Shown here: positions 4,795 to 53,537 of the stretch, piece by piece
How positions within the stretch are numbered: position 1 is the stretch's first letter
Layout: each line of letters opens with the position of its first letter
Virus record (IMG/VR): IMGVR_UViG_3300045974_000429
Span: 1-64,000 of that record
Direction: 5' to 3' (one strand)
Length of the DNA: 64,000 nt
Source of the DNA: a virus
Made by a program: the position numbers and the translations under genes
The notes under the pieces: model-generated
The model's database searches: none
Seen by the model: only the letters and a program-made list of their open reading frames with translations
Told to the model about the DNA's origin: nothing

Positions 4795-5201
4795 GGGGTC
4801 TCCTTCAGGCCGGGCAGCAGCCGGTAGGCTTGCCGGATCCGCTTCCTGGGCTTCCTGACCGGGTCGTCCAAATCGAAGACGCGCGTGAGGCAGCAGAGGT
4901 GCTCCGCGCACCGGGTCGGCAGATGGTGGCGCCCGAGAGACGGGTTCTTGGAGTCCCAGGCGCGGGTGTGCCTCCTCCGGCAACGCTCCGGGACTTGGTG
5001 AAAGAACTCGTCCAGGATAACCTCCACGTCGAAACGCTCGGGTCCGGCCTTCCTGACGCACTGCGGCGCGAGGCGCTCCCTGAAATGCTCCTCCGGCGTG
5101 CGCAGCCCGACGAAATTGTCGTTGGGGTATCTGGAATATAGCCTGACGCCGCGCAGCTTGGCCGTTGCCTTGATGGCGTCTATGAGCTGGCGGAGTTTCA
5201 C
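4791..5201 (-). CDS. small basic paralogue, array member 3 (longest, Cys/His-rich)
   Basis: 136 aa. The start KLRQLIDAIKATAKLRGVRL keeps the N-terminal pattern of the array. It then differs: a middle with FDVEVILDEFFHQVPERC and several Cys/His (RRRHTRAW, GRHHLPTRCAEHLCC) that could bind zinc, and a basic end (VRKPRKRIRQAYRLL). Coupled by GTGA to members 2 and 4. It may be an older or extended member. Function unknown. Confidence 0.72.
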   Translation of the reverse strand: MKLRQLIDAIKATAKLRGVRLYSRYPNDNFVGLRTPEEHFRERLAPQCVRKAGPERFDVEVILDEFFHQVPERCRRRHTRAWDSKNPSLGRHHLPTRCAEHLCCLTRVFDLDDPVRKPRKRIRQAYRLLPGLKETP

Positions 5202-5521
5202 CTCACCCTCCTGAACCTGTAGACGACGTCTCGGAGCCCGCGGTGGGAGATGCCGGCGTTCCTGAACAGCCCACTGCGGACTCCCTGCGCGGCGACGGAG
5301 CGCAAAAACATGGGGCCGAGCCTGCAGCTTATCTCCCCAGGAAGGCGCCTGACCGAAACGAGCCTGCGCCCCTCCACCTTCACGAGCCCGGAGACGACCA
5401 GGGCGGTGAATACCGCATCCACGTCCCGGCGGAGAGAGGGCCTATCGCTTTTGATTGCAGAAACCTGATGCCGCTCGGGATTTTCTGGAGGCGCCCCTGT
5501 CGGTTTTGATTTCCGGCTCAC
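5198..5521 (-). CDS. small basic paralogue, array member 2, carrying two iterons
   Basis: 107 aa. The family part begins at about residue 28 (SLRRDVDAVFTALVV), has GPMFLRSVAA and ends VVYRFRRVR. Unlike its neighbours it has about 27 extra N-terminal residues, and that extension is where two copies of the 19-bp origin-type repeat lie (5439-5456, 5494-5511). The extension may therefore exist only because the DNA sites are there. GTG start overlaps the previous stop. Confidence 0.75.
   Translation of the reverse strand: MSRKSKPTGAPPENPERHQVSAIKSDRPSLRRDVDAVFTALVVSGLVKVEGRRLVSVRRLPGEISCRLGPMFLRSVAAQGVRSGLFRNAGISHRGLRDVVYRFRRVR
5439..5511 (-). repeat. pair of iteron-like repeats, 55 bp apart
   Basis: Minus-strand copies AATCAAAAGCGATAGGCCC (ends at 5456) and AATCAAAACCGACAGGGGC (ends at 5511) match the four repeats inside the initiator gene at 25971-26189. 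The first is read here in a different frame (AIKSDRP) from those in the initiator (SKAIGP), so the DNA rather than the protein is conserved. Confidence 0.72.
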
Positions 5522-5769
5522 TTGGTCCTCCAGATCAATTTCGGGCCGCGCCGGTAGGTTTCCACGTACCCCTGCCTAGAGAAGAATTGCCGCGTGAACC
5601 GGCAATTATCGTGCGCCCTGAGAAATCCGGGCCGGAGGCGGAGACCGATCTTGGCGCCGTTGAAATTGTGCTTCTGCGTCGCCCGGTAGAAGGCGATGCT
5701 CTCCTGGATGGGCAGGAGAGCGATGGCGGCCTTGATGGCGTCCACCGTCTCCCGCAGGCTGCGCCTCAC
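5518..5769 (-). CDS. small basic paralogue, array member 1
   Basis: 83 aa, the shortest member. Begins VRRSLRETVDAIKAAIALLP, has RPGFLRAHDNCRFTRQFFSR centrally and ends YRRGPKLIWRTK. GTG start overlaps the upstream stop. First of the six in transcription order. Function unknown; like the others it is strongly basic. Confidence 0.76.
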   Translation of the reverse strand: MRRSLRETVDAIKAAIALLPIQESIAFYRATQKHNFNGAKIGLRLRPGFLRAHDNCRFTRQFFSRQGYVETYRRGPKLIWRTK

Positions 5770-18701: not shown

Positions 18702-18726
18702 ATCCTTGCGCGGTCCGCGCGAAATC
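18702..18726 (-). promoter_or_regulatory. bipartite element, copy D
   Basis: GATTTCG, 7 nt, CGCGCAAGGAT. Its first bases are the TGA stop of the DNA polymerase gene; its end is 6 nt from the next ATG. Confidence 0.62.
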
Positions 18727-21409
18727 ACTGCGTCGCTCGCTTGTGCGCCGACGCCGCGAGCCACTTGTCCAGAGGAATCATGCTCGCCCAGGTGAGCCCG
18801 GCCTTCACGTCCGCGTCGAGCGGCACCTCACCGGAGTCCCAGGAGAGCATCACCGCCTTCACCGTAGCAGCCACCTCCGACACGTCCGCGATCTTGCACT
18901 CCAAGAGCAGCGAGTCGTGGACCGGAAGGATGAGCTTCGCCGGCAGGCCCTCCTCCTCGATCAACCGAACGACCTCGCCGAGCGAGCGCAGGAGGAAGTC
19001 CGACCCGGTGCCCTGGATCGGCGTGTTGTAGCTGCTCCGCTCCGGCGTGCCGCGGCGCGCCTCGTCGGGGCTCCCGATGTCCCAGAGCGGGCGGCGGCGG
19101 CCGGGCCGCCCCTCCCACCACGTCTCGGCGTAGCCGTGCGTGCGCGCAAAGGCGAGCCGCTGCTTGATCCAGGCCCCGAGCACCCGGTAGCGCCCGAGGA
19201 TGGCGTCGAGCGCCGCCTGGGCCACCTGGACGCTCGTGCCGAGCGTGACGGCCATCGCCTTCGCCCCCTTGCCGTAGAGGGCGGCGAGGCCGACCGGCTT
19301 CGCCTCGTCGCGCTGGGCCTTCGTGATCTCGGCCTTCCCGTCGGGGCGGATTGGCGCCTTCGGCCACAGGTAGGGCTGGACGATCTGCGCCGTCTCACCG
19401 TGGAAATCGCGGCCCTCCACGAACACCTGTGTCAGCGCCGGATCGCCGGAGAGCAGCGCCGCGATGCAGGGCTCCAGGCGGGAATAGTCCAGCTCCAGGA
19501 GCGCGCATCCCGCCGGGGCCGCGATGCAGCGCCGGATCATCTCGCCGTCCTCCGACTTGGCGCCGGGCACGTTCTGGAGGTTCGGAGAAGCCATCGAGGT
19601 TCGGCCGGATCCGGCGCCGTCCAACAGGATGTAGCCGTGGGCGCGCCCGTCGATCCCGATGGCGCGCTCCAAGCCCTCGACGTAGGTGCCGAGCATCTTC
19701 TCGATGCGCCTGCGCTCCAGGAGGTCTTTGATCGCCGGGTGCCTGTCGCTGATCCGCGCCAGCGTCTCCTCGTCGGTCGCCGGCCGCCCGGAGTCCGTGA
19801 GCTGCGGGCAGGGGATCTTGAGCTTCTCGTAGAAGAGGGCGGCGACCTGGATCGTGGAAGACCAGTTGAAGCCGGGCTCGACGTAGGCCGCGAGCCGCGC
19901 GTCCACCTCCGCCAGCTTGCCGGTCAGGTGCGCGCGCACGAGATCCACGGCCGAGCGGTCGATGGGGACGCCCCACGCCTCCACGCGCTGCACCGCCGGG
20001 AGCGCGTGCCGCACGACCCTGTCCCAGATGCGCGCCGGGCCGGCGTTCTCCTCTCGGGCGAGCCGCTCCGAGCACCAACAGTAGAGCCGCGCCGTGGCGA
20101 GGGCGTCGCGAGCGTTGTACCGGGCGCCAAGCTCCCGCGGGAGGAGCCCGAGGGCGTAGGCGCGGACCTCCGTGCCGGACTGTGCCGCGAGCGTGAAGGC
20201 CAAGACCTCGACCCGCTCCGGGACGTGCGGGAACAGCCTGGGCAGGCAATAGTCCGAGATGTGTTGGTTGAGGAGCGTGCCCACGGCGTACATCTTGGCG
20301 CGAGCGCGGAGTTCCTTCTTGACCGCCTTCCCGATCCGCTCGACCTCCGCGTCGGCCTCCTCCTTGTGGCCCCCCATCCCGACGAGTTCGGCCATCGTGG
20401 CGATGTCGCCGTCCGCGTCGGCCTCCAAGAGCTTGCGCTGGAGGCGGACGTCCGCGTGCTGGCCGCGAACCGGGACGCCCAGGCCGCGCTCCACGGCGTG
20501 AACGTCCACAGGCAGGTTCGCGCCGACCTTGAGCACCCGACCGGATCGCATCAGGCGCTTGAGCGGCTCCGCTCTGCCATCTTGGAGGGACTCCAAAGGC
20601 CAGACCCAGACGTGCTCCGGCCCGTCGCGGTCGCAGGGGGCGCAGGCAATGTTCGTGAGGTGGAACCCCTCGCGGCCGTAGGGGCGCCCGATCCACTCGC
20701 AGTCGTAGGCGAAAATGCTCGCGTCTGCGAGGTCGAGGGCGGCCTCCTGCGCGTCGGCCTCCGTCTCCACGAGAGAGAAGGTCGCGGCCTCCGGCCCGGC
20801 AGGCACCTTGACGGAGAGCGCCCAGGCCAAGTCCTCCTGGAGCGCGAGCTGGAGGTGGCGGTTGCCGGCCGCTTGTGCCGGCGAGAGCACAACGAATACT
20901 GGGATGCCCTTCGCGGTACGCGCGAAGCTCTTGCGCGCCGAGAGCGGGGAAACCCTGCGCCCGAGAACCGCCTCCGCTGCCGCGGCACCCAGGCAGACGA
21001 TCCTGTCCGGCAGCTCGTCGTCCACGACCCAGGCGAGGTAGCCGCGGCAGGCGTCCAGGTGCTTCTCGGACACCTCCGCGGAGCCCGGAGCGCAGCGCAC
21101 GGCGGAGGTGATCACCGAGCGCCCGGCGCCAAGCGGCAGCACCCGCTTGAGCAGGTCGAACGCGGCGCCGTGCCCGAGTGCCCCGACGCGATCCTCCTCC
21201 CGACTCGGGCGCTCTGCGACGAACAGCGCGCCGCCGGTTCCGGGAGCCGTCTCGATGGGCGGCAGGCAGCAGCTCCTCGCGCCCTCCCGCAGCGAGCACC
21301 GGAAACACCCCTCGTCTCGCGGGAGGCGCGGCGCAACGTCGATGGCGGCGGCCGAGCCCCCTTCCGCGAGGGGCTTTCCGGCGAGGTAGAGCGGGAGGCG
21401 CGAGGTCAT
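18725..21409 (-). CDS. fusion of uracil-DNA-glycosylase-like domain and family A DNA polymerase
   Basis: 894 aa. Residues about 35-205 resemble family 4 uracil-DNA glycosylases: Cys pair CFRCSLREGARSCC, FVAERPSREEDRVG (cf. GExPGxxED) and CLGAAAAEAVLG. The late His-Pro catalytic motif is not evident (LSPAQ), so activity is doubtful. A 3'-5' exonuclease domain starts about 230 (FAYDCEW; D, E). Polymerase motifs: A DYSRLEP (D641), B KPVGLAALYGK (about 703), C PVHDSLLLE (about 830) with Ser in place of the usual Glu after HD. Replicates the phage genome. The preceding gene ends just upstream. Confidence 0.9.
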   Translation of the reverse strand: MTSRLPLYLAGKPLAEGGSAAAIDVAPRLPRDEGCFRCSLREGARSCCLPPIETAPGTGGALFVAERPSREEDRVGALGHGAAFDLLKRVLPLGAGRSVITSAVRCAPGSAEVSEKHLDACRGYLAWVVDDELPDRIVCLGAAAAEAVLGRRVSPLSARKSFARTAKGIPVFVVLSPAQAAGNRHLQLALQEDLAWALSVKVPAGPEAATFSLVETEADAQEAALDLADASIFAYDCEWIGRPYGREGFHLTNIACAPCDRDGPEHVWVWPLESLQDGRAEPLKRLMRSGRVLKVGANLPVDVHAVERGLGVPVRGQHADVRLQRKLLEADADGDIATMAELVGMGGHKEEADAEVERIGKAVKKELRARAKMYAVGTLLNQHISDYCLPRLFPHVPERVEVLAFTLAAQSGTEVRAYALGLLPRELGARYNARDALATARLYCWCSERLAREENAGPARIWDRVVRHALPAVQRVEAWGVPIDRSAVDLVRAHLTGKLAEVDARLAAYVEPGFNWSSTIQVAALFYEKLKIPCPQLTDSGRPATDEETLARISDRHPAIKDLLERRRIEKMLGTYVEGLERAIGIDGRAHGYILLDGAGSGRTSMASPNLQNVPGAKSEDGEMIRRCIAAPAGCALLELDYSRLEPCIAALLSGDPALTQVFVEGRDFHGETAQIVQPYLWPKAPIRPDGKAEITKAQRDEAKPVGLAALYGKGAKAMAVTLGTSVQVAQAALDAILGRYRVLGAWIKQRLAFARTHGYAETWWEGRPGRRRPLWDIGSPDEARRGTPERSSYNTPIQGTGSDFLLRSLGEVVRLIEEEGLPAKLILPVHDSLLLECKIADVSEVAATVKAVMLSWDSGEVPLDADVKAGLTWASMIPLDKWLAASAHKRATQ

Positions 21410-22217: not shown

Positions 22218-22242
22218 ATCCTTGCGCGGTCAGTCGGAAATT
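22218..22242 (-). promoter_or_regulatory. bipartite element, copy E
   Basis: AATTTCC, 7 nt, CGCGCAAGGAT. The left half codes for the last residues of the primase. It stands 28 nt from the next ATG, which has its own CAGGAG site, so here the AAGGA cannot be the ribosome-binding site. Confidence 0.6.
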
Positions 22243-23084
22243 ACCCGCCGCGCCTCCTCGAAAAGCCAATTTCGATCCACTTGGTCGGGGTCTTTCTTCG
22301 GCGGCAGCCTCACGGAGCCGGCCCGGATCCCGTCGAGCCGCAACTTCATCGCCAGCGCCCACCCCTCCTCGTGCGCATCGCCGTCCAGAACCACGGCCAC
22401 GGGTCGGCGGGCGGTCGTCTTGATGATCCAGAGCTGCTCCTCGGTTGGCTTCCCGAGCACCGCCACGGCGTCGCCGACGAACGGGAGCGCATCGAACACC
22501 CCCTCGGTGATCATGACCGGGGTTTCCGTCTCCCGGCGCAGGGCATCCGCACCGAAGAGAACGTCGCCGCGCCAGTTGCCTCGCGCGTTCAGGTATTTTT
22601 TCTCGGCCTTGCCGGTGAAGTCGCGCGCGACCCAACCGCGCCAGTTGCCGTCCACCAGCACGGGAACGACCACTCGGCCGGCGTGGCGCCCGCTGCCGAG
22701 TACGCACCCGATCTGGAGCTTCCTGGCCGTCTCCGGGCTCACGCCGCGCTTCTGGAGGTACGCTCTCGCCGGCTTGGCCGAGAACGCTCGCAGCCCGTCA
22801 CCTTCACCCAGCGGCAGGAAACCATCCGGCGGCCGGCGCGCCTCCGAGTCGTCGGGGGGCGGAGTCTTGACGGCCTCCTGGAGCGCGTCGTCGTCAGCCT
22901 CCAGGCTCCCGCCGGTGTGACACCTGAAACAGTGCCAGTGGCCGGTGCTCGGCTGAATCGAGAACGTCGGATCTGGGCGAGCGGGAACGCAGAACGGGCA
23001 GGCGCCGCGCCACCACCCGGAGGCCCGAGGCTTAGCCTCCCTGGCCGCCGCGCGGGCTAGATCCAGCTTCTCCTCCAACCTCAC
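22230..23084 (-). CDS. DnaG-type primase (zinc and Toprim domains)
   Basis: 284 aa, short for a primase. Zinc domain CPFCVPARPD, then HWHCFRCHTGG (about 29-57). Toprim: VMITEGVFDAL (catalytic Glu, about 193) and VVLDGDAHEEG (DxD-type Asp pair, about 234). Makes RNA primers for lagging-strand synthesis with the DnaB-like helicase two genes upstream. GTG start overlaps the previous stop. Confidence 0.9.
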   Translation of the reverse strand: MRLEEKLDLARAAAREAKPRASGWWRGACPFCVPARPDPTFSIQPSTGHWHCFRCHTGGSLEADDDALQEAVKTPPPDDSEARRPPDGFLPLGEGDGLRAFSAKPARAYLQKRGVSPETARKLQIGCVLGSGRHAGRVVVPVLVDGNWRGWVARDFTGKAEKKYLNARGNWRGDVLFGADALRRETETPVMITEGVFDALPFVGDAVAVLGKPTEEQLWIIKTTARRPVAVVLDGDAHEEGWALAMKLRLDGIRAGSVRLPPKKDPDQVDRNWLFEEARRVISD

Positions 23085-23671
23085 CGATGCAGCTCCGGCC
23101 AGAGCTGCGCGAACGCTCGCGCGAACTCCGCCCGAGCCTGCTTCCAGGGTAGCGGCCGCACGTCGAACCGCACCGGGTCCAAGACCGCACCGAGCACGTG
23201 CCACGGCGCCGGCCGAGTCACCTCCGGGAAAAATTGCGCCGCCTCGGAGACGAGCAGGTCCAGGTCGGCCTGCTTCACGTCCGGCGGCTCCTCGCCGACG
23301 AGTCCGAACCTCTCCGCCACGGCCCGCATGATTTTTTCCTCGCAGCGCCGGAACTCGACCATCTCGGGCTGGCTCTTGAGCGGCTTCGGCATGTCGCCGA
23401 TGTACGCCTCCGCCGCATCGTGGAGCAGGCCCCAGCGGGCGACGTTGATCCGCTCCGCTTCGAGCATCCCGGCGGAGAGGCTATACGCCCGTCTGGAGAC
23501 GAGCACGCTGTGCTGTGCGACCGAGTAGGGCTCGGGGGCGTGGCCGTTGTAGCGGTTCACGCAGGCGAGCGCGTGGGCGATGTCGGGGAGCTTGATGTCT
23601 TCCGGCCGCGGGTCGAGCGGCCAGAACATGAAGCCGCGGTAGGTCTGGGTCCAGCTTCCTTTTCGCGTCAC
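23081..23671 (-). CDS. HD-domain phosphohydrolase
   Basis: 196 aa. His/Asp metal ligands: YSVAQHSVLV (about 52), LLHDAAEAYIGDMPKPL (HD pair, about 84, and the later Asp) and a Glu/Asp-rich helix after. Resembles YfbR-type 5'-nucleotidases or dNTPases; substrate not determined. Sits between helicase and primase, coupled to both, so nucleotide-pool control is likely. Confidence 0.83.
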   Translation of the reverse strand: MTRKGSWTQTYRGFMFWPLDPRPEDIKLPDIAHALACVNRYNGHAPEPYSVAQHSVLVSRRAYSLSAGMLEAERINVARWGLLHDAAEAYIGDMPKPLKSQPEMVEFRRCEEKIMRAVAERFGLVGEEPPDVKQADLDLLVSEAAQFFPEVTRPAPWHVLGAVLDPVRFDVRPLPWKQARAEFARAFAQLWPELHR

Positions 23672-25047
23672 GTCGTTCCTCCCGAGGCCGCCGGAGCGGC
23701 GGGTCCGAACCTCACGATGGGGCCGATGGCGGCGCAGGCGAGATCGAGCGGGATCGGCCCGCTCGATCCGCACGCCTTGCCGGTGCGATTCTTCGGCAGA
23801 AAAAACTCGATGCTCATCTGGTCCTCGGCGATCTCCGCCACGAGGAGCTTGTCACAGACGCGCGCCTTGCCCATTCCGTCCGCGAGATCATCCGTCCCGA
23901 TCCGCTTGCGCTTCGCGCCTGTGCTGGACACGCCCTTGGGCTGGCTCACCGTCCAGCCCCAGCACTGCAGCTCGTCGTGGACGAGCCGGCGCAGCTCCGT
24001 GAACACCCGCTTCACCCGCTCGTGGCCGGGCACCTCCTGGCGCGTCTGCGGAATGGTCAAGTCGTCGGCCGAGTCCACGACGAGCAGGTCCACGTCCCGC
24101 CCCTGATCGCGGGAGAGGTCGCGACACCAGCGCCCGATCTCGCCGACGGTCGTCGCACCAGGCGTGAAGTAACGCACCGCCACGCCGCCCCCCGTCGCCG
24201 CCTGCCGCGCCTTCAGCAGCTTCGCGGCCCGGTCCCGCCCGTCGCCGGGCTTCAGCAGCGCGTCGATGGGGATGCCCGTCATGTTCGCGACGACCCGCGC
24301 GTGCCAGATCGCCACGCTGACCTCCGTCGTCGCCACGGCCACGAACCGCCCGTCGTAGGCCGCCTGCCCCGCGAAGTGCGCCAGGGTCATGCTCTTGCCT
24401 CTCCCGGTCGCGAGGGAGACGAGTCCCAGCTCGCGCTTCGGGAGGCCGCCGCCGAGCAGGTCGTCCAACTCCATCACGCCCGTGAAGAGCAGCGCCTGAT
24501 GCGCCTCCTCGTCGGCCTCCGCCCAGGCTGCCGCGTCGCCCAGGAGCACACCCGATGACTCCTCCGCGCTGCCCAAGCGCTCCGCCTTCTCCAGCAGCTC
24601 CGCGACGACCGCGAGCGGCTTCCTGTTCGCGTAGGCGTCCATCCCGGCCTTCAGGGCCGCCGACTCCTGGCGGCGCCGCAGCTCCTTCGCGAGCTGCGCC
24701 ACGACGGACTCCACGTCCGGGGGCGGGAACATCTCGTCGAAGGCGTCGAAGTAGGCGCCGGCCGCGGCGAGCTGCTCGTGCGTCGCCTTGCCCTCGTTCA
24801 TCCTCCGGCGGAGATGCTGAAGAACGTAGGTCGGCGAGCCGGGAACGCCGCGCTCCGCGGCGACCTCGTGCGCCGCCTGCGCGACGGTCTTCGCATCCGC
24901 GGAACCGAGGCAGGCCGGGTCGATGGCGTGGCCGACTCGGCGATAGAAGCCCGCATCCGAGCAGGCGAGCCCGACCGCCTCGCGCTCGAACTTCGGGTCC
25001 AGGTTGTAGGGGTCAGCTTTCGGGGCCTTCACGAGCGCGAGCGCCAT
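23668..25047 (-). CDS. DnaB-like replicative helicase
   Basis: 459 aa. N-terminal helical domain to about 150. RecA-fold core with LGGGLPKRELGLVSLATGRG then KSMTLA (Walker A GRGKSM, about 213), ATTEVS (H1a-like, Glu), and LLVVDSADDL (Walker B, about 299). A sensor/DNA loop segment WGWTVSQPKG follows. Unwinds DNA at the fork; encoded right after the initiator gene, the usual order for initiator and helicase pairs. Confidence 0.88.
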   Translation of the reverse strand: MALALVKAPKADPYNLDPKFEREAVGLACSDAGFYRRVGHAIDPACLGSADAKTVAQAAHEVAAERGVPGSPTYVLQHLRRRMNEGKATHEQLAAAGAYFDAFDEMFPPPDVESVVAQLAKELRRRQESAALKAGMDAYANRKPLAVVAELLEKAERLGSAEESSGVLLGDAAAWAEADEEAHQALLFTGVMELDDLLGGGLPKRELGLVSLATGRGKSMTLAHFAGQAAYDGRFVAVATTEVSVAIWHARVVANMTGIPIDALLKPGDGRDRAAKLLKARQAATGGGVAVRYFTPGATTVGEIGRWCRDLSRDQGRDVDLLVVDSADDLTIPQTRQEVPGHERVKRVFTELRRLVHDELQCWGWTVSQPKGVSSTGAKRKRIGTDDLADGMGKARVCDKLLVAEIAEDQMSIEFFLPKNRTGKACGSSGPIPLDLACAAIGPIVRFGPAAPAASGGTT

Positions 25048-25053
25048 ACCTCA

Positions 25054-26697
25054 TCACCTCCCAGCGGCACGATGTGCCGAGTCCCAGACGAATACGCCCT
25101 CTTCGACCTGCCGGCGAAGGGCCTGCTCGGATCCTTGCGCGGCCGCACCGATTTTCTTTCGCGCCGCCTCCAGGCTCGCGCACCCGTTGCGGAACTCCGC
25201 CGCGACCGCGGCGCGCTGCGCATCCAGGTCGCCCTCGGCGCAGGCGGACACCCCGGACGCCATCCGCCGCCAGCGGGCGTAGAGGGCCTTCGCCTCCTCC
25301 GTGCTCGGCAGCGGGGTGCCCCCCTCGCAGCGGTCGCGGTGCTCCAGCATCTCGTCGAGCCCGCGGCCCTCCATCCAGCGAACCATGAAAACGTTCTCCA
25401 GGCGCGGCGCGGTATTCGGGCCATTCTTTTCGCGGTGCTCGTTGAACCGCCAGTTGACCCAGGAAATTGGAGCCACCTCGCGATCTCGCAGGAGCTTGCC
25501 AGCCTGGAGCAGGACTGTCCTGGAGCTGGGGCGGAGCTTCAACCAGCATTTCCCGAGCCGATGCTGGTGGACGCACTGGTAGGCGGCGAAGAGTTTTTTG
25601 ACGACCTGCTCGTCGGAATCCGTCGCCAGGAGCCTCGGAGCCGGCGGGAGTTTGGCTCGCGCCGGGAATGGAAACTCCGGCGGCATGCTGAGACGAGCCA
25701 GCCGGGTGGGCAGCGGGGTGACGGGAATAACTGGCCGGGTGGGGGTCGGGCCGGAGATGCTCGGCGTGCTTTTAGCCCTAGCGACGGGCGCCGGATTTTT
25801 CGGCGCCTGGGATCTGAGCGTAGCGAAGATCTCTAGCTTCTTTTCTTTACTCGGGTCGCGGTTTTGATTCTCGATCAAGCTGGGCGCGGGTTTGCGCGCC
25901 CCCCCTTCCGGCGCGGATTCGGGGGGGATCGCCGGCACCGGAGCTTCCGGCCTTGTCGTCTTTGATTCCGGCCCTATCGCTTTTGATTGCAGATCCTCGG
26001 AAGCACGCAGCTTCCCGGGAAATGCCCCTATCGCTTTTGATTCTCGCGGGGGCGGCGCGGCCGAGCCGCGAGAAATATTCCAAGAATTGTTTTCCGCCTC
26101 TCGAACCTTTGATTCAGGCCCTATCGCTTTTGATTGCACCTCGCTGGAAGCAGGCGCTTTTTCTGAGTCGGGGCCTGTCGCTTTTGATTTCCTGCCAGCA
26201 CCCTTCCTGGCGCCGCCGGAGAAGCCGACCCCGGCGAGCAGCGCGGCTTGAGCTTTCGGGGGGAGGCGGACCCGGTCGTAGGGGAGCCGCTCGCCCATGG
26301 CCTCGACGCGGCGAACCCACATCATGCGGTGGCCGTCCGGGTGGTTCCGATCTGGCATGTCGAGGTAGGCGAGCCCGCGACCGGACGGCGCGTCGAGGTC
26401 CTGCGGCAGCTTGAAGTCCTTCGGGGGCGGCCAGAGATCCTTGTCCTTTGGAAGCTGTGGGCGGTACTCCAGCCAGCCGAGGCGGTAGAGCCGGGCATAG
26501 GCGCGGTGGACGGACGTCACGCTCATCCCGAGGATGCGCGCCACGGCCTCGTGGGTCTGCGTGCTGTAGGGCATGGAGAAGGTCTTGCGCCGCTGGAGGT
26601 GATCCCACACCCTCCAGGCCATCCTCTGCCACTTCTTGACGCCTGCTTCGGACAACTCCGAGCCGGCTTCCACTAGATACGGTGCTGGTGCGCCCAC
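25054..26697 (-). CDS. replication initiator with winged-helix domain and embedded iterons
   Basis: 547 aa. Residues about 15-85 form a winged-helix DNA-binding domain: KKWQRMAWRVWDHLQ, HEAVARILGMSVTSVHRAYA and RLGWLEYRPQL. Residues about 165-245 are a low-complexity Pro/Ser/Lys linker containing SKAIGPESK-type repeats, which are the translation of DNA repeats at 25971-26189. The C-terminal 220 residues (LFAAYQCVHQHRLG onwards) look folded and may recruit the helicase encoded next. The layout matches lambda O, with origin repeats inside the initiator gene. GTG at 26697 was chosen since AAGGAGG stands 6 nt upstream, in the arm of a stem. Confidence 0.75.
   Translation of the reverse strand: MGAPAPYLVEAGSELSEAGVKKWQRMAWRVWDHLQRRKTFSMPYSTQTHEAVARILGMSVTSVHRAYARLYRLGWLEYRPQLPKDKDLWPPPKDFKLPQDLDAPSGRGLAYLDMPDRNHPDGHRMMWVRRVEAMGERLPYDRVRLPPKAQAALLAGVGFSGGARKGAGRKSKATGPDSEKAPASSEVQSKAIGPESKVREAENNSWNISRGSAAPPPRESKAIGAFPGKLRASEDLQSKAIGPESKTTRPEAPVPAIPPESAPEGGARKPAPSLIENQNRDPSKEKKLEIFATLRSQAPKNPAPVARAKSTPSISGPTPTRPVIPVTPLPTRLARLSMPPEFPFPARAKLPPAPRLLATDSDEQVVKKLFAAYQCVHQHRLGKCWLKLRPSSRTVLLQAGKLLRDREVAPISWVNWRFNEHREKNGPNTAPRLENVFMVRWMEGRGLDEMLEHRDRCEGGTPLPSTEEAKALYARWRRMASGVSACAEGDLDAQRAAVAAEFRNGCASLEAARKKIGAAAQGSEQALRRQVEEGVFVWDSAHRAAGR
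25131..25155 (-). promoter_or_regulatory. bipartite element, copy F (inside the initiator gene)
   Basis: AAAATCG, 7 nt, CGCGCAAGGAT: both halves identical to copy A though fully inside coding DNA, 84 nt ahead of the dnaB-like start. It fits an element that acts on dnaB transcription or on an RNA-level event. Confidence 0.55.
25860..26189 (-). repeat. iterons: probable replication origin
   Basis: Four 19-bp copies on the minus strand, consensus AATCAAAAGCGATAGGGCC, with cores at 25971-25988, 26025-26042, 26118-26135 and 26172-26189. Starts are 54, 93 and 54 bp apart. Copies 1 and 3 carry an extra half-site GAATCAAAG exactly 11 bp away (25960, 26107). A partial copy (AATCAAAAC) lies at 25860-25868. 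The longer gap includes an AT-rich stretch (AAATATTCC, AATTGTTTTC), a possible unwinding site. All lie within the initiator gene. Confidence 0.72.
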
Positions 26698-26702
26698 ACG
26701 GC

Positions 26703-26838
26703 CCCTCCTTGAATGAGGACCGGACCGGATGGAACCCTTTGGGGCGGCAGGGCGGGCTAGAGTGGGTGTCGGCTGGCACCCTCTGGACCCTGACGCCTTG
26801 TGGACGATGGGTCCGACCCGGCCCTCATTCAAGGAGGG
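26703..26838 (-). promoter_or_regulatory. 16-bp stem sequestering the initiator ribosome-binding site
   Basis: In the transcript, CCCTCCTTGAATGAGG (26838-26823) is the exact complement of CCTCATTCAAGGAGGG (26718-26703), 104 nt downstream. The second arm contains AAGGAGG, the ribosome-binding site of the initiator GTG at 26697. Folding would block initiation. The 104-nt loop could bind a ligand, protein or antisense partner, or could re-pair. Confidence 0.68.
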
Positions 26839-26946: not shown

Positions 26947-28395
26947 CTACGCCGCCCCCTCCTCCGCCCGGAGGCGCGCAGCCTCGTCGGCCTTCGCGCG
27001 CGCCATCAGGGAGAGCTGCTCGGCGGGGAGCACGACGACCTCGTGTTTCTCGCGCCCGTAGGCCGCGAACCGCGCGAGGGCGTGCCGGTCGAGCCAGCGG
27101 TGCGTTTTGCGGTCGAGGACGTCCCAGACCTCGAAGGTGGTCTTGCCGGCGGCGACGCGCATCCCGCGCCCGATGCGCTGGAGGGCGGCGATGACGCTCT
27201 TCCCGGCCGTCCCGATGACGACCGAGGCTAGGGTGGGGATGTCGATGCCCTCTTGGAAAACACCCGAGCAGACGAGCACGTCCAGATCGCCGCGGACGAG
27301 GGCGCTGATCTTGTCCTGGCGTCGCCGCACGCTGTCGGTCCCGTGCGTGAAGCCTGTGCGGAGCCCGGTCCGCCCGACGAGCCTCTCCAGCTCCCGCCCG
27401 TGGGCGACGTGCTGCACGAAGAGGAGCGCAGGCTTCTCGGCCGCCTGGGCCATCTCGACCAGGAGGGCGTTGCGCTTGCCGGACTCGGCGACCAGCTCCC
27501 GGTACATTTCCTGATGCGTGGCGAGCTTGCGCCCGGCGACGGAGGGCTGTTCGCAGGGGATCATGCGGATCGTGGGCTTGGAGAGCACGCCAGCAGCGAT
27601 CAGCTCCGCGGCCCGCACGCGCGCCACGACCTTGCCCGTCGCAGCCGTCACGAGGAGGCTGCGCTTGTCCGTGCGGTCGAGCGGGGTTCCCGACATCGCG
27701 ATGCGGTAGTAGGCGCCGGTGAGCGCCATCACGGTTGCCCAGTACGTCTGGCTCGCGACGACGTGGCCCTCGTCGGCGATGAACCCGCCCACCGAGGCGG
27801 CGAGCGCTTTCGCTCGCGCGTGGTGGGGGTGGGAGTCGTTCACGAGCGCGTCTCGGAAACTTTGGAACGTGGTGCAGGTCAGCACGGCGCCCTCCGACCA
27901 CGTTCCGCCGCCGATGCGCCCGGCGATGCCGCTCGTGCGCTTCTCGTAGCGGTCCGCGACGTCGAGCACGAGCTGCTCCCGATGGACGAGGAAAAGCCAC
28001 TTGCAGTAAGGCGCGCGGCGCACGAGACCGACCGCGACTTCCCCTTTACCTCCTCCTGTGGAAATCCATATAATTCCCTGGCCTTCGGTGAGGGCGGAGT
28101 CCACGGCTCCGCGCTGGTAGTCGCGGAGCCATGCGAGGTCCGCGTTGATGTCGAGCGGCGGCCGCTTGCGGCGGTCGATGACCTCGACCTTCATCCGCTC
28201 GTCGACCGCTCCGCGCTCCACGAGGTGGAGGAACCCGCGCGGGAACGTCCCGCGCCACTTCTGGAACATGCGGATCTTGCGCCCGCCCCCCATGTAACTC
28301 CGGTCCTCGAACGCGAGGAACTCGGACAGCCATGCCGTCTCCGCCTCGCTGGCGGCGGCCACTCGGCAGCGCGCGTTCTCGACCTCGATCAGCAC
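26947..28395 (-). CDS. UvsW-type superfamily 2 helicase
   Basis: 482 aa. Motif I IISTGGGKG-like segment IIWISTGGGKGEV (about 109-121), motif Ia LVHREQL, motif II ADEGH (DEGH box, about 183), motif III AMSGTP, motif V FQEGIDIPTL and motif VI QRIGRGMR (about 433). An N-terminal domain of about 90 residues precedes. UvsW-like enzymes remodel recombination intermediates and R-loops. GTG start right after the upstream stop. Confidence 0.9.
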   Translation of the reverse strand: MLIEVENARCRVAAASEAETAWLSEFLAFEDRSYMGGGRKIRMFQKWRGTFPRGFLHLVERGAVDERMKVEVIDRRKRPPLDINADLAWLRDYQRGAVDSALTEGQGIIWISTGGGKGEVAVGLVRRAPYCKWLFLVHREQLVLDVADRYEKRTSGIAGRIGGGTWSEGAVLTCTTFQSFRDALVNDSHPHHARAKALAASVGGFIADEGHVVASQTYWATVMALTGAYYRIAMSGTPLDRTDKRSLLVTAATGKVVARVRAAELIAAGVLSKPTIRMIPCEQPSVAGRKLATHQEMYRELVAESGKRNALLVEMAQAAEKPALLFVQHVAHGRELERLVGRTGLRTGFTHGTDSVRRRQDKISALVRGDLDVLVCSGVFQEGIDIPTLASVVIGTAGKSVIAALQRIGRGMRVAAGKTTFEVWDVLDRKTHRWLDRHALARFAAYGREKHEVVVLPAEQLSLMARAKADEAARLRAEEGAA

Positions 28396-31409: not shown

Positions 31410-31858
31410 GCTTTCTTTTCGCTCTGCGCCGCTTCCCGCGCGAGGCGGGAAATTGCGGCGGGTTCCGCTCCGAGCTTGTGGAGCGCGAGGCATGCCTGAA
31501 ACGCATCCGGGTGCGACAGGCGGAGAGCGAGGACGCGGCGCCTGGTCTCCGGGGTGAGGGAGGTGTCGCCGGCTAGCCTGACGACATCGCGGTGCTGCGC
31601 CGCCGCCCAGTGGCCCCAGAGCAGCTTGGCGCGCCTGCCCCGCATGCCCAGCTGGTAGCCGGTCACGTCGCGGACCAGATCGACGCCGGCGGCCTGGAGG
31701 TGCTCGCCCCAGGGAGTCGGCACGATGACCTCGCCGGCCGCGAACCGCGCGCGGCGGGTGGTCAGCGCCTGACACCGATCGCCGGCTCGGTGCTGGGCGA
31801 GCCGCGAGGTGGCAATCTCGGCGGTGCAGCCAGGGCAGATCGTTATTGGGTCGGTCAC
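31406..31858 (-). CDS. small protein with N-terminal zinc motif
   Basis: 150 aa. ITICPGCTAEIATSRLAQHR, then AGDRCQAL near the start is a Cys/His cluster suited to zinc. The rest is helical: GMRGRRAKLLWGHWAAAQHR and SHPDAFQACLALHKLG. GTG overlaps the stop of the VWA gene. Its stop codon forms part of promoter P1. Function unknown. Confidence 0.72.
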   Translation of the reverse strand: MTDPITICPGCTAEIATSRLAQHRAGDRCQALTTRRARFAAGEVIVPTPWGEHLQAAGVDLVRDVTGYQLGMRGRRAKLLWGHWAAAQHRDVVRLAGDTSLTPETRRRVLALRLSHPDAFQACLALHKLGAEPAAISRLAREAAQSEKKA

Positions 31859-33273
31859 GGCGTCGGCTCCCGGTCCACGAGGACCACCTCGCCGAACCTC
31901 TTGACGTCGTTGGTGTAGGTGCTCCCAATGAGCGCCCAGATGACCTTGGCGCCCTTGGGCTCCGGGCCGGGGTCGCCGATCATGCCGTCCGTCAGGACGA
32001 TGATCACGCTGGGCGGCGTCCTGGATTCCATGAGGAGCTTGAGGGCCGGCTTCATGTCGGTGCCGCCGCCGCCCTTGAGCTTGGAGGCCGCCTCCTTGGC
32101 GGACCTGACCTTGAGGAGCCCATCCGTGCCCGCGTCGATGGCGCAGAAGGTGACGTCGCCGCCGACCGCCCGGAGGATGCCGTCCACCTCGCCGAGGGCC
32201 TGCGCGAGCTGCGCGCCGCTCATGCTGCCGGAGGTGTCCACGACGACCGCGACGTTGGGCTTGTGGCCGTGGAAGCTCGGCATCAGCGGGCGGCCCGGCC
32301 CGTAACCCAGGCCCGCCTGCCGGCGGCTCGGCTTGGAGAAGCCCATGTCGGTGGCGCCGGAGGCCCGCATGAGCGTGCGCCGCACGAGGCGCTGGAGCTT
32401 GTCCTGCCACCGGACCTTGGGCGGCTTGATCTTCTCCTCCGCCCACCGCGCGAGCCCGCCGGGGACGCTGCCGCGCCCCTTCTGCGCAACGTGGGAGGCG
32501 ACCTCGCGCGCGACCTGCGCCCGGATGCGCTCCGCCTCCGCCTCGCCGACGCCCAGCGGGTCGCCCTGGGCGGCCTCGCCCGAGCCCTTGCCCGGCTGTC
32601 CCTGACCGGCGCCGTCGCCGTCGCCGGGCTGCGGCTTGTCCAAGCCCAACTTCTTCTCGATGTCGTGCGCGTTGCCGGCGCAGGAGCCGCACTGGCCGTT
32701 GCCAGGGCCGCCCTTGCCCGGCTGCCCCTGGCCCTTGTTGCCCTGCTTCTTCTGGGACTGCTTCTTCCGCAGCTCCTCCAGGTAGACCTGGGCGGGCTGC
32801 CCCTCCGGCATCCCGATGCTGCTCGGCAGCCAGAAGATGTTCTCCACCTGGGCCTGGGCGGCGTACTCCGCCTTCGTGAGCGGGCGACCGGGCAGTTTCC
32901 AGCCTCCGGCGACGAGGTCGTCGTTGTTCGCCATGTCGCTGGCGAGGTTCGCGTTGTGGTGCTGGCTCGGGTCCGCCTTGCAGAGCGCCTCGAACCGCTT
33001 GACGTCCTGCCGGATGAAGTGGAGCAGCTCGTGGACGAGCGCGCCGGCCAGCTCGTCCGTCGGCAGGCCCGAGACGAATGCGGCCGAGTAGTAGCAGACG
33101 TTTTGGTCGGTCATCCCGAGCGTCGAGAACCCGCCCGGCCGGACCGGCTCGCACTCGGCGGCCGGCACCTCCAGGAACACGGTCCGCGAGAGCGCCGCCC
33201 AGAAATAGGGAGCCTTCGTGCGGACCGCTCGCCGAGCGATCTGGATGCACTGCATCGCGGTCAACTTGGCCAC
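31855..33273 (-). CDS. VWA-domain/metallopeptidase-like protein (MoxR partner)
   Basis: 472 aa. N-terminal domain with HExxH-type zinc site LVHELLHFIRQ (about 81-91), as in DUF2201-like proteins. A Gly/Gln/Lys-rich linker follows (about 172-232). The C-terminal von Willebrand A domain has the MIDAS motif VVVDTSGSMSG (about 337-347) and LTDGMIGD. MoxR ATPases usually work with VWA proteins to remodel complexes; here the MoxR gene is two genes upstream. GTG start. Confidence 0.88.
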   Translation of the reverse strand: MAKLTAMQCIQIARRAVRTKAPYFWAALSRTVFLEVPAAECEPVRPGGFSTLGMTDQNVCYYSAAFVSGLPTDELAGALVHELLHFIRQDVKRFEALCKADPSQHHNANLASDMANNDDLVAGGWKLPGRPLTKAEYAAQAQVENIFWLPSSIGMPEGQPAQVYLEELRKKQSQKKQGNKGQGQPGKGGPGNGQCGSCAGNAHDIEKKLGLDKPQPGDGDGAGQGQPGKGSGEAAQGDPLGVGEAEAERIRAQVAREVASHVAQKGRGSVPGGLARWAEEKIKPPKVRWQDKLQRLVRRTLMRASGATDMGFSKPSRRQAGLGYGPGRPLMPSFHGHKPNVAVVVDTSGSMSGAQLAQALGEVDGILRAVGGDVTFCAIDAGTDGLLKVRSAKEAASKLKGGGGTDMKPALKLLMESRTPPSVIIVLTDGMIGDPGPEPKGAKVIWALIGSTYTNDVKRFGEVVLVDREPTP

Positions 33274-33275
33274 GG

Positions 33276-33590
33276 CTACCACCCACCGCTGTAGCGGCCG
33301 GAGGTGCTCCCGCGCCCGTCGCACTCGTCGCAGTGCGACGGGTGGCAGCCGGGGTAGCCGCAGGGGCGCCAGTTGCGCGGCGCGGAGCGCGGCCGCTGGG
33401 GGAACTGCTCCGCCGCCATGATCTCCGCCCCAGATTGCGGCGCGGCCGCCAGCGGCGCGGGGCAGGCCAAGTGCGCCGCCTGCGCGCCCGGCGCCCAGAG
33501 GATCTGCGTTCCGGCCGGGAACCGCGCCCCGCACTTCGCGCAGGTTCCCGGAAACTTCGCCGCCATCTGCCTCGTGCCCGTCGTCGCCAT
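33276..33590 (-). CDS. zinc-ribbon protein
   Basis: 104 aa. Two Cys clusters: CAKCGARFPAG (about 17-27) with LACPAP, and CGYPGCHPSHCDECDGRG (about 76-93). The second looks like a small treble-clef or ribbon. ATG after GAGGAGACGAAG, a leader shared with the gene at 36381-36623. Lies between the MoxR and VWA genes. Function unknown. Confidence 0.75.
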   Translation of the reverse strand: MATTGTRQMAAKFPGTCAKCGARFPAGTQILWAPGAQAAHLACPAPLAAAPQSGAEIMAAEQFPQRPRSAPRNWRPCGYPGCHPSHCDECDGRGSTSGRYSGGW

Positions 33591-33675: not shown

Positions 33676-36051
33676 TTATTTCACGGCGACCAGGATCGGG
33701 TTGAGTTTGGCCAGTGTCTTCATCGACGCGGCGCCGAGCAGCCGGGCGCCGGCGAGCGCCCTGGCGGGCGCCTCGACCAGATCCGCGGCGTCATCCATCA
33801 GCGTCTCCAGGAGCGCCCACATCTTCGCGGCGCGCACCTTCTGGGAGGCGCCGGCGTCGCCGGTCACGAGCGCGGTGCAGGAGGAGAGGACCGCGTCCGA
33901 GATATCGAGGCGGTGAGGGTTGTGCTTCCACTTCGCCTTCCCGTCCAGGATCTCCGCCGGGTCCGGCAGGTCCATGTTCGTGGCGTAGGTCAGGAACTCG
34001 CCGGCGGGGCCGTCGCCGACGAAGGCTGCGACGAGCGTGTCCCGGTCGCCGGCCGAGAGGCCGTGGATCTTGGAGGCGGCGAAGGCCCGCGTGGCAGCCT
34101 CCCAGCTCCGGGGGGAGGGCCACGCCTGGGAGGCGGCCGGGCTGTTCGCCTCGGGCACCTTGAGGAGCAGGTCCGACTTGCGCTTGACGAACCCGGCGAC
34201 GAGGCCCCGAGCGGTCGCCCACGGCGTGCCCCAGGCGGCGAGCACCCGCGCCTCCTCGGCCGCCGGGTCGATGGGCGCGGCGGCGGCGCTCTCGCCACCG
34301 CCCAGGAGCCAGTTCGTCCACTCCTCGGCGGTCGGGGCCTCCCAGTTGATGTGGCCGAGTCGGTTGGCGACCGGCATCGCGAGGTCCCACCCGCCGGCCG
34401 CTTGGTCGGTCGGGTTCGCCGTGGCGAGCACCCGGACGCCCGAGGCGAGCGGCTGTCCGCCGATCATGCGCTCCTGGATGAGCCCGAGGAGCGGCGGCTG
34501 GAGCGCGGGCGGGGCGCAGTTGTGCACCAAGGTGCCGCCTGCCCCTGCGAAGAAATTGTGGTCGCGTTCGACGGTCAGGTCGTAGACGATGCAGGAAACG
34601 GCGTTGCGCTGGATTCGGTGCACGCGCACGAACGCAGGAAGTTGCGGATCAGCGCCTCCAGTGCGTCCGGAGTCCGGAGAAGCTGCGCACGAACCCGCAA
34701 GGTCCGCCAGCCCGCCGCGCGATAGTCTTGTGCTTCCAGCAGAGGCTCCGAGGGCGTTAAGCGGTCTAGCAGAATCGCCGCGCGCAGCGGCAGATCCGCA
34801 AAGTCCGGCACCCGCCAGTTTCTGCGCCCCCCCGGCGGGATCGGTACCCGCAAGCTTCCATCCCCCGTGTACGGCAGCGCGATCTTGCGCGCAGTGAGAA
34901 ACGTGATCATCTCCCGTTCTGTTGGCGTCGGTTTCGCCATGCGGAACACGCACGGGATCCGCCCGGAGATCGTGTGCGCGCGGTTCTTCGCTGCTATCGA
35001 GTCCATCTGCCCGTGCTTCCAGGCCGCCAGGAACTTGGTTGACGCCATCTCGCGCCCCGCAGCACTGCGCCAGAACGCTCCCGCAGCCCGCCCGCCCATC
35101 TGCGATAGATTTGGATGGATCTTCCGAGCCGCTGCAGCTGCACGCGATGCCGCTGCGGCCCGCTCCGCCGCGGTCGTCCTCGCGAGGAACGTTGCCGTGC
35201 TCTTGCGCTGAATTATTGCATTCACTTCGAGCGAAAGCGTTGCACGCATCTCGGCCAGCCTCGTTCCGTGCGCACGCTTCTCCGCAGCAAACGCTGGATC
35301 CGCCATCCGTGCGCGCTGCGTTACCGCCGCAGCCGCCCCGCGCCTTGCTGACATCTGCGGGTCCGCCAGCAGTGCTGCAGGGAACCGCGTGCGAAACTCC
35401 GCTACCGTCATCCCATGCCGCTTCTGAAGATGCGTCGCTGTGAGGACCCACATCGGCAGCAAGCAGATCGCGCAGCGCAACGAGGGTGCTTCCAGCGCGG
35501 AGCTGCTCTGCTGGGATCCAGCGTCCTTCGCTGTAGATGGGGTGGTCAGGGGTGCAGCGGATCGTCGTGCCATCGGTCAGCTCCAGGGTGAGCAGCGCCG
35601 TGACGCGGCGCTGCATGACTCCAGAAACCAGATTAGCGCGGCGCATCCCACGTTGCAAGGCGCAGGACCAGACGGCGTCACCGACCCGCAGCTGCTCGAT
35701 TGGCCGCTGGCCTTGTGGCGTGTGGACCGGCGTGCCTGCGGGGAAACAGGAAATCTCGTCGATGATGACCAGCCCCCTCTCCGCCATCCCGAGCGTCCAC
35801 TCGGGCGCGGGGTAGGAGAGGAGGGTGCGCCCGTTGATCGTGGTCGGGACCGGGACGACGCCGAAGGCGCCCTCGCCGCGCTCGCCGGGGGAGAGGATCT
35901 CGACCTTGAGGCCGCCAGCCTTTCCGGCCGCCTCGCAGCTCTGTGTTTTGGCGACACCCGGAGGGCCGCGGAACAGGAGGGGCAGGCCCCAGCGGTTCCG
36001 GCTGATGGGGGTGAAGAGGGCTGCGTGGAGGATCTTGGCCTTGTTCGTCAT
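33676..36051 (-). CDS. MoxR-type AAA+ ATPase interrupted by an intein
   Basis: 791 aa before splicing, 381 aa after. N-extein: Walker A RGPPGVAKT (28-36) and Walker B RGLVIIDEIS (92-101). The intein (residues 102-511) sits directly after DEIS; the C-extein resumes CAPPALQPPLLG, then LATANPTD (sensor 1) and RLGHINWEAP (Arg finger region). The insertion point in Walker B is a conserved site, as inteins prefer. MoxR proteins remodel partner complexes with VWA proteins; the partner is at 31855-33273. Driven by promoter P3. Confidence 0.9.
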   Translation of the reverse strand: MTNKAKILHAALFTPISRNRWGLPLLFRGPPGVAKTQSCEAAGKAGGLKVEILSPGERGEGAFGVVPVPTTINGRTLLSYPAPEWTLGMAERGLVIIDEISCFPAGTPVHTPQGQRPIEQLRVGDAVWSCALQRGMRRANLVSGVMQRRVTALLTLELTDGTTIRCTPDHPIYSEGRWIPAEQLRAGSTLVALRDLLAADVGPHSDASSEAAWDDGSGVSHAVPCSTAGGPADVSKARGGCGGNAARTDGGSSVCCGEACARNEAGRDACNAFARSECNNSAQEHGNVPREDDRGGAGRSGIACSCSGSEDPSKSIADGRAGCGSVLAQCCGARDGVNQVPGGLEARADGLDSSEEPRAHDLRADPVRVPHGETDANRTGDDHVSHCAQDRAAVHGGWKLAGTDPAGGAQKLAGAGLCGSAAARGDSARPLNALGASAGSTRLSRGGLADLAGSCAASPDSGRTGGADPQLPAFVRVHRIQRNAVSCIVYDLTVERDHNFFAGAGGTLVHNCAPPALQPPLLGLIQERMIGGQPLASGVRVLATANPTDQAAGGWDLAMPVANRLGHINWEAPTAEEWTNWLLGGGESAAAAPIDPAAEEARVLAAWGTPWATARGLVAGFVKRKSDLLLKVPEANSPAASQAWPSPRSWEAATRAFAASKIHGLSAGDRDTLVAAFVGDGPAGEFLTYATNMDLPDPAEILDGKAKWKHNPHRLDISDAVLSSCTALVTGDAGASQKVRAAKMWALLETLMDDAADLVEAPARALAGARLLGAASMKTLAKLNPILVAVK
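34519..35748 (-). mobile_element. intein in the MoxR ATPase, with HEN gene in another frame
   Basis: 410 codons. N-terminal splicing block A CFPAGTPVHTPQG, then block B GTTIRCTPDHPIYS (TxxH-type), then C-terminal blocks F/G VYDLTVERDHNFFAGAGGTL and the end VHN followed by Cys of the C-extein. Class 1 layout: Cys1, penultimate His, terminal Asn, Cys+1. About 300 codons in between read as Ala/Gly/Ser/Asp-rich low-complexity sequence in the splicing frame; the same DNA codes for a plausible homing endonuclease one frame away. Confidence 0.88.
34575..35573 (-). CDS. homing endonuclease, out of frame within the intein
   Basis: 332 aa in the +1 frame relative to the MoxR-intein frame. N-terminal MucR/ROS-like zinc finger with CAICLLPMWVLTATHLQKRH and GMTVAEFRTRFP (about 33-64). 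Helical Ala-rich middle. C-terminal Vsr/EDxHD-like nuclease region: PTPTEREMITFL, WRVPDFADLPLRAAILLDRL (acidic positions) and AAGWRTLRVRAQLL. Vsr-like endonucleases are known with split or interrupted inteins. It overlaps intein blocks at both ends, so the whole gene is dual-coded. No clear ribosome-binding site found. Confidence 0.7.
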   Translation of the reverse strand: MARRSAAPLTTPSTAKDAGSQQSSSALEAPSLRCAICLLPMWVLTATHLQKRHGMTVAEFRTRFPAALLADPQMSARRGAAAAVTQRARMADPAFAAEKRAHGTRLAEMRATLSLEVNAIIQRKSTATFLARTTAAERAAAASRAAAAARKIHPNLSQMGGRAAGAFWRSAAGREMASTKFLAAWKHGQMDSIAAKNRAHTISGRIPCVFRMAKPTPTEREMITFLTARKIALPYTGDGSLRVPIPPGGRRNWRVPDFADLPLRAAILLDRLTPSEPLLEAQDYRAAGWRTLRVRAQLLRTPDALEALIRNFLRSCACTESSATPFPASSTT

Positions 36052-53497: not shown

Positions 53498-53537
53498 AAA
53501 GGCCAACCTTTCTCGGCACTTAGCCGATGTTCGAGTC

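Follow-up and report, generated by a model that had tools for sequence, protein, structure and literature searches.

The DNA analyzed here, referred to as the window, is a stretch of 64,000 nucleotides corresponding to positions 1-64,000 of the IMG/VR virus record IMGVR_UViG_3300045974_000429, which contains 83,744 bases and carries nearly all of its called genes on the minus strand. A putative initiator gene was found in this window within a set of replication genes:

26947..28395, minus strand: SF2 helicase, upstream of the initiator gene
25054..26697, minus strand: putative initiator gene (N-terminal winged helix, basic GGARKGAGRK segment, low-complexity linker holding the repeats, helical C-terminal domain)
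23668..25047, minus strand: DnaB-like replicative helicase (PHROG 19, E 5.8e-36), directly downstream of the initiator gene
22230..23204, minus strand: DnaG-type primase (PHROG 47, E 8.1e-42)
18725..21409, minus strand: DNA polymerase A with an N-terminal uracil-glycosylase-like domain

The putative initiator (547 aa) is encoded from a GTG start at 26697, with an AAGGAGG sequence 6 nt upstream of the GTG. A preliminary description of this DNA, made from the letters alone, had proposed a winged-helix protein with repeats in a low-complexity linker, encoded next to a DnaB-like helicase. Both proposals were borne out, the N-terminal domain being predicted as a winged helix (pLDDT 73, 20-row alignment) and the adjoining gene being assigned to DnaB as listed above. 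The C-terminal domain was predicted to be all-helical (pLDDT 88.7, 28-row alignment). The window protein reached no Pfam cut-off and had no PHROG match with E ≤ 0.1. The C-terminal model had no match at E ≤ 0.001 in PDB or BFVD, which is not proof of a new fold. Many winged helices resembled the N-terminal model with near-tied scores, including chains titled initiator or Rep-DNA complex and also TubR structures, and thus the fold look-up gives no inference for this domain. The N-terminal domains of some relatives described below showed weak matches to PHROGs annotated as replication initiation O-like or as replication initiation protein, with a best E of 0.00075 (E 0.0098 for a replication-initiation PHROG in L114). 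No description of this initiator family was recognised in the titles and abstract openings of the papers listed in literature searches.

The linker carries the following candidate iterons and half-sites, and two further copies were located in a distal part of the window:

26171..26189, minus strand: iteron A1, AATCAAAAGCGACAGGCCC
26117..26135, minus strand: iteron A2, AATCAAAAGCGATAGGGCC
26107..26114, minus strand: half-site AATCAAAG, starting 21 bp after the start of A2
26024..26042, minus strand: iteron B1, AATCAAAAGCGATAGGGGC
25970..25988, minus strand: iteron B2, AATCAAAAGCGATAGGGCC
25949..25967, minus strand: degenerate, nearly full copy AATCAAAGACGACAAGGCC, starting 21 bp after B2 and holding the half-site AATCAAAG at 25960-25967
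25862..25869, minus strand: lone half-site AATCAAAA
5493..5511, minus strand: distal copy C1, AATCAAAACCGACAGGGGC
5438..5456, minus strand: distal copy C2, AATCAAAAGCGATAGGCCC, in another frame (AIKSDRP)

The four in-gene 19-mers are spaced 54/93/54 bp from start to start on the minus strand, as had been described. The two extra half-sites of the preliminary description were also found, but at a distance of 21 bp, or two helical turns, and not of 11 bp. In the 64-kb window, ARTCAAAAGCGAYAGGSCC gave 8 matches with at most 3 mismatches, when 0.06 were expected. A search of the whole 83,744-base record for AATCAAAAGCGATAGGGCC with at most 5 mismatches added only one site, with 5 mismatches, at 53534 on the other strand.

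All four in-gene copies share one reading frame and encode SKAIGP or SKATGP, and therefore a repeat selected as a peptide had to be excluded. The repeats are written with rare codons: in 17 genes, TCA accounts for 24/651 Ser codons, AAA for 39/342 Lys codons, and ATA for 7/385 Ile codons, and three of these seven ATA codons fall within the repeats. Repeated 12-mers numbered 20 in the initiator gene, compared to a mean of 1.3 after synonymous-codon shuffling, and none of 1000 shuffles reached 20. As a control, none of nine other window genes fell below 39/1000 at k=14 in the same test. With shorter words, the polymerase gene (k=12, 3/1000) and the gene at 38383 (k=10, 0/1000) also exceeded their shuffles, and an excess of short words is thus unspecific when taken alone. 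Given the rare codons, the excess over shuffles, and the different frame in which the distal copy C2 is translated, the signal lies in the nucleic acid, and the repeats are DNA-level signals.

Further elements were observed between the two in-gene units and in the leader of the gene:

26043..26116, minus strand: candidate unwinding element, an AT-rich patch separating units A and B (53% AT in its best 100-bp window, against 32% in the record)
26041..26074, minus strand: inverted repeat TTCTCGCGG-N16-CCGCGAGAA at the border of the AT-rich patch
26703..26838, minus strand: inverted repeat in the leader of the initiator gene (arms 26703-26729 and 26812-26838), pairing with its ribosome-binding site

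Only 0.11% of the record windows were as AT-rich as the patch, and a position test within the gene gave p=0.10; in the window taken alone, the patch is only suggestive of an unwinding element. The inverted repeat at its edge may be a chance occurrence, and no significant hairpin was detected behind the repeats of the window in a synonymous-shuffle test (p=0.36). The leader inverted repeat, with arms of 27 nt at 89% identity, was the strongest found in the whole record, and the RNA fold of 26703-26838 reached -84.9 kcal/mol (z -5.4). It may control translation of the initiator. No match was obtained in Rfam, and a promoter/terminator scan returned nothing near the initiator gene on the minus strand.

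The raw cumulative GC skew reached its minimum near 30.5 kb. When fourfold sites in minus-strand genes were considered, no significant switch of the skew was detected, as 753 of 5000 gene permutations reached the observed range. Since there was no such switch and nearly all genes lie on one strand, this minimum was dropped as support for an origin; the GC-skew analysis, which had been put forward as a check in the preliminary description, was thus uninformative and left the origin unlocated.

Relatives were sought with several queries. With the window protein or its DnaB, no relatives were found in viral contigs; none were found in genome contigs, nor did four initiators used as queries recover any initiator relative among 50,697 phage records. 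An exact 16-mer scan of viral contigs was discarded, its 25 single matches being close to an estimated chance level and none of them lying beside a homologue of the initiator gene. The polymerase, used as a query in viral contigs, gave 20 loci and then the best 80 of 134. Among the 82 loci examined, 50 contained DnaB and 43 an ORF ending just before DnaB, many of these ORFs terminating with a W-x-W motif. The gene order SF2 helicase - initiator gene - DnaB - primase - polymerase was kept in distant viral contigs.

Four ORFs were excluded by eye as another family (L073, L102, L103, and L111), so that the repeat test covered the window and 39 ORFs. In this test, self-similarity at lags 12-120 was compared with that of 150 synonymous shuffles per ORF, and repeats were called when either the summed or the best score had p ≤ 1/150. 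Near-duplicates were merged by eye (L037, L041, L052, L059, and L105), and L071 was not counted, its ORF being a methylase-like gene (scored 0/150). Significant direct repeats were found in 17 of the 24 non-redundant relatives of at least 350 aa from the examined loci (L036, L044, L051, L055, L061, L065, L067, L070, L072, L074, L078, L081, L089, L094, L109, L114, and L115), L072 passing by its best score alone (summed score 27/150). The seven other full-length relatives had no significant repeats (L042, L043, L046, L048, L058, L076, and L085). A contig end truncates L046, L067, L109, and the L041/L044 pair. No significant repeats were detected in the shorter ORFs (nine beside L105: L075, L084, L088, L092, L093, L104, L108, L110, and L113), which are truncated or devoid of the winged-helix half. 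In L084 (4674-7101), L075, L088, L092, L093, L104, and L113, the short gene preceding DnaB consists of the C-terminal domain only, without winged helix or repeats, and in L084 a gene recognised by eye as a DnaN-like sliding clamp lies upstream of it.

The iteron sequence varied from phage to phage (for example, AATCAAGTGTGGGGTCA, GAATTCAAAGCGGGG, GAAATCAAAGGCACCCCC, and GAATCAAGCGGGACCGCTAC), and TCAA was present in 14 of 21 iteron families, compared to 1.76 expected. Counted from their positions, neighbouring copies were 21-23 bp apart in 13 of 20 repeat-bearing relatives (the 17 above and three from a held-out set), and at least one spacing broke the frame in 16 of these 20. The DNA immediately behind the last iteron was AT-rich, and in many cases this stretch was the 60 bp of highest AT content in the gene; a hairpin came next (such as GCTTTTCTTCCTTCGGAAGAAAAGC in L089). 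For the window and 16 relatives, which had been picked for having repeats, the position of the AT-rich stretch gave a Fisher p of 2.4e-5, and the hairpin, compared with synonymous shuffles, a p of 3e-10, with a floor of 1/61 on the hairpin p. L036 was omitted from both tests because the end of its array is unclear. A second GC-rich palindrome was often seen beyond the first hairpin in the linkers of L061, L065, L070, L074, and L089, as in L089 with GCGCGGCTGCGCCGCGC followed by CCCCCTTCGGGGG.

The held-out set was composed of loci fetched anew with an alignment of DnaB proteins. Of the 73 loci fetched, 19 came from contigs already in the first set and 10 were distant, and the analysis covered the remaining 44. 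Ten of these 44 loci belonged to the initiator module and 34 represented other DnaB contexts, among which 10 had no upstream ORF; two held-out loci, L141 and L145, lie on contigs met before (L102 and L060, respectively). The three new module ORFs longer than 350 aa (L119, L127, and L132) all had significant repeats in the same place (AATCAAGTCGCCTATTTC; GGAATTCAAACTGGGTC; AATTCACCAGAGCGC), with an AT patch behind the repeats at p 0.08-0.13 each and a hairpin at p 0.016-0.049 each. L138 (310 aa) was not counted; it has a 13-mer pair (0/150) near the C-terminal end, without the TCAA core. No array of this type was observed in the other DnaB contexts among the 44 held-out loci, where L162 and L164 gave weak matches (2-3/150, best score) in unrelated upstream ORFs.

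Distant relatives thus have, in the gene at this position, direct repeats of their own together with an AT patch and a hairpin, which leads us to read the repeats of the window as iterons of an in-gene origin. The likely origin of the preliminary description is supported by this comparison, with own repeats in 17/24 relatives and in 3/3 held-out ones. As judged from sequence, iterons followed by an AT-rich patch and a hairpin make up the layout of an iteron origin like those in lambda O and in gene 38 of SPP1. It is thus very probable that the linker of the gene at 25054-26697 holds the replication origin of the phage and that this gene encodes its initiator. Several observations argue against the origin reading: the GC skew has no switch at fourfold sites, seven of the 24 full-length relatives show no repeats, the AT-patch and hairpin tests are not significant in the window alone, the window protein matches no replication family, and the 54-bp pairing in the window is unlike the arrays of about 22 bp of most relatives.

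The N-terminal half of lambda O has a winged-helix-type fold, and the putative initiator resembles it in having an N-terminal half of this type. Lambda (J02459) carries four 18-bp iterons in O (for example, ATCCCTCAAAACGAGGGA), spaced 20/24/23 bp and followed by an AT-rich run. In both cases, iterons of 18-19 bp lie midway along the initiator gene at a spacing of about two helical turns, with AT-rich DNA directly behind (in the window, as a suggestive patch only), and a short TCAAAA-CGA-GGG resemblance is seen between the lambda iteron and the 19-mer of the window. The window differs from lambda in that a DnaB-like helicase gene, and not a P-type loader gene, adjoins the initiator gene, and in that its iterons form pairs spaced 54 bp, with half-sites at 21 bp, and are accompanied by a distal pair. 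The preliminary description had likened the locus to the plan of lambda O; this holds for the layout but not for homology to O, since the window protein had no PHROG match with E ≤ 0.1 and hhalign with the 20-row N-terminal profile gave a probability of 0.1. Lambda O, used as a control, matched PHROG 277 at 1.2e-152, and a few relatives matched the O-like PHROG 678 weakly. In the excerpt of a report on lambdoid origins, in-gene iterons are followed by AT-rich DNA, and iteron number varies in Stx-phage and other lambdoid origins, from four in lambda to six in P27 and 933W (PMC7466680). The plan is the same here, but the iterons are nearly identical between the phages of that excerpt, whereas they diverge strongly among our relatives.

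As described in excerpts of two reports on SPP1 (PMC6316719, PMC3485210), gp38 binds repeats at two loci separated by 12-13 kb, oriL, which lies within gene 38, and oriR, both of which include an AT-rich region. In these reports, gp38 was proposed to arrest forks at oriR and to set off the transition to concatemers. By these descriptions, the window resembles SPP1 in having a probable origin in the gene of the putative initiator, direct repeats with AT-rich DNA, and a phage-encoded DnaB. SPP1 has the loader gp39 and uses host replisome parts, in contrast to this phage, which has its own primase and PolA.

The same kind of repeat at a distant second locus, as in SPP1, was also found here at 5493-5511 and 5438-5456. 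C1 and C2 are spaced 55 bp apart and lie 20.5 kb from the in-gene repeats, so that the phage contains three units of like build (19-mer, 35-36 bp, 19-mer). The distal pair sits at a local AT peak equalled by 0.45% of record windows. Between 3886 and 5769 (minus strand), a row of small genes sharing an LRxxVDAVKA motif, apparently tandem paralogues, was observed; the distal pair is held in an N-terminal extension of the paralogue at 5198-5521, which its neighbour at 5518-5769 lacks. Four relative records scanned whole contained no second repeat cluster, one of them showing two lone matches with 3 mismatches, and the distal pair may thus be peculiar to this phage, or the scanned records may be incomplete. 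We give even chances to a role of the distal pair as a second origin or fork barrier.

We infer that the N-terminal winged helix binds the AATCAAAAGCGATAGGGCC iterons and that the resulting nucleoprotein complex would open the adjacent AT-rich patch at 26043-26116. The helical C-terminal domain would then load the phage DnaB encoded by the neighbouring gene onto the melted strand, after which the phage primase and the UDG-PolA polymerase would run the fork. The distal pair at 5438-5511 could be a second locus bound by the initiator, in the manner of SPP1 oriR.

Alternatively, the winged-helix protein might be a regulator or a partition (centromere-binding) protein, and the repeats its operators or centromere. 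The winged-helix fold is frequent among regulators and TubR-type partition proteins, TubR binds repeats and is represented among the fold matches, and the sites occur at two loci. However, the in-gene sites are about 0.5 kb inside the gene, away from any promoter position, they are backed by an AT-rich patch and hairpin, and in all syntenic relatives the genes of the module serve replication (helicases, primase, polymerase), making this explanation improbable. Even less probable, in our view, is a dispersed element (mobile, or used in recombination or packaging) that is formed by the 19-mer pairs and located in the gene by accident. Such an element would agree with three units of like build, one of which is 20.5 kb away in a small gene with a similar neighbour devoid of it, but four of the six copies are in the initiator gene, the same gene of distant phages has repeats of other sequence, and no second cluster was present in the four relative records scanned whole. 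Equally improbable is a protein motif, (Q/E)SKAIGPESK, copied in a disordered linker, for instance for partner binding, with a DNA likeness due only to recent duplication: it would account for the common frame of the in-gene copies, but not for their rare codons and excess over synonymous shuffles, the other frame of C2, or the mostly frame-breaking repeats of relatives.

The origin reading places the gene in an initiator family of uncultured phages that is unnamed in the searched libraries, the in-gene iteron origin itself being a known plan. A broader proposal, to which we give slightly less than even chances, is that of an undescribed initiator family whose members recruit the helicase through a helical domain of their own and have no separate loader, and in which the in-gene origin has been kept through deep divergence while the iteron changed in each phage. 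An A/T-TCAA half of the iteron would be kept and the other half would be phage-specific, so that each phage would read its own origin only. The phage studied here would also have a second pair, bound by the initiator at a distance, with which its mode of replication could be switched. Phased iterons, an AT patch, and a hairpin, all within the ORF before DnaB, may serve as a signature for locating origins in a group of uncultured phages, and an unannotated protein family is pointed out. The relatives offer a natural series of initiator-iteron pairs showing how specificity evolves inside coding DNA, and small plasmids could make origin recognition testable.

Elsewhere in the window, the gene for a MoxR-like ATPase (33676-36051, minus strand) was found to contain an intein, recognised by the Intein_splicing and Hint profiles, and adjoins a VWA-protein gene at 31855-33534.
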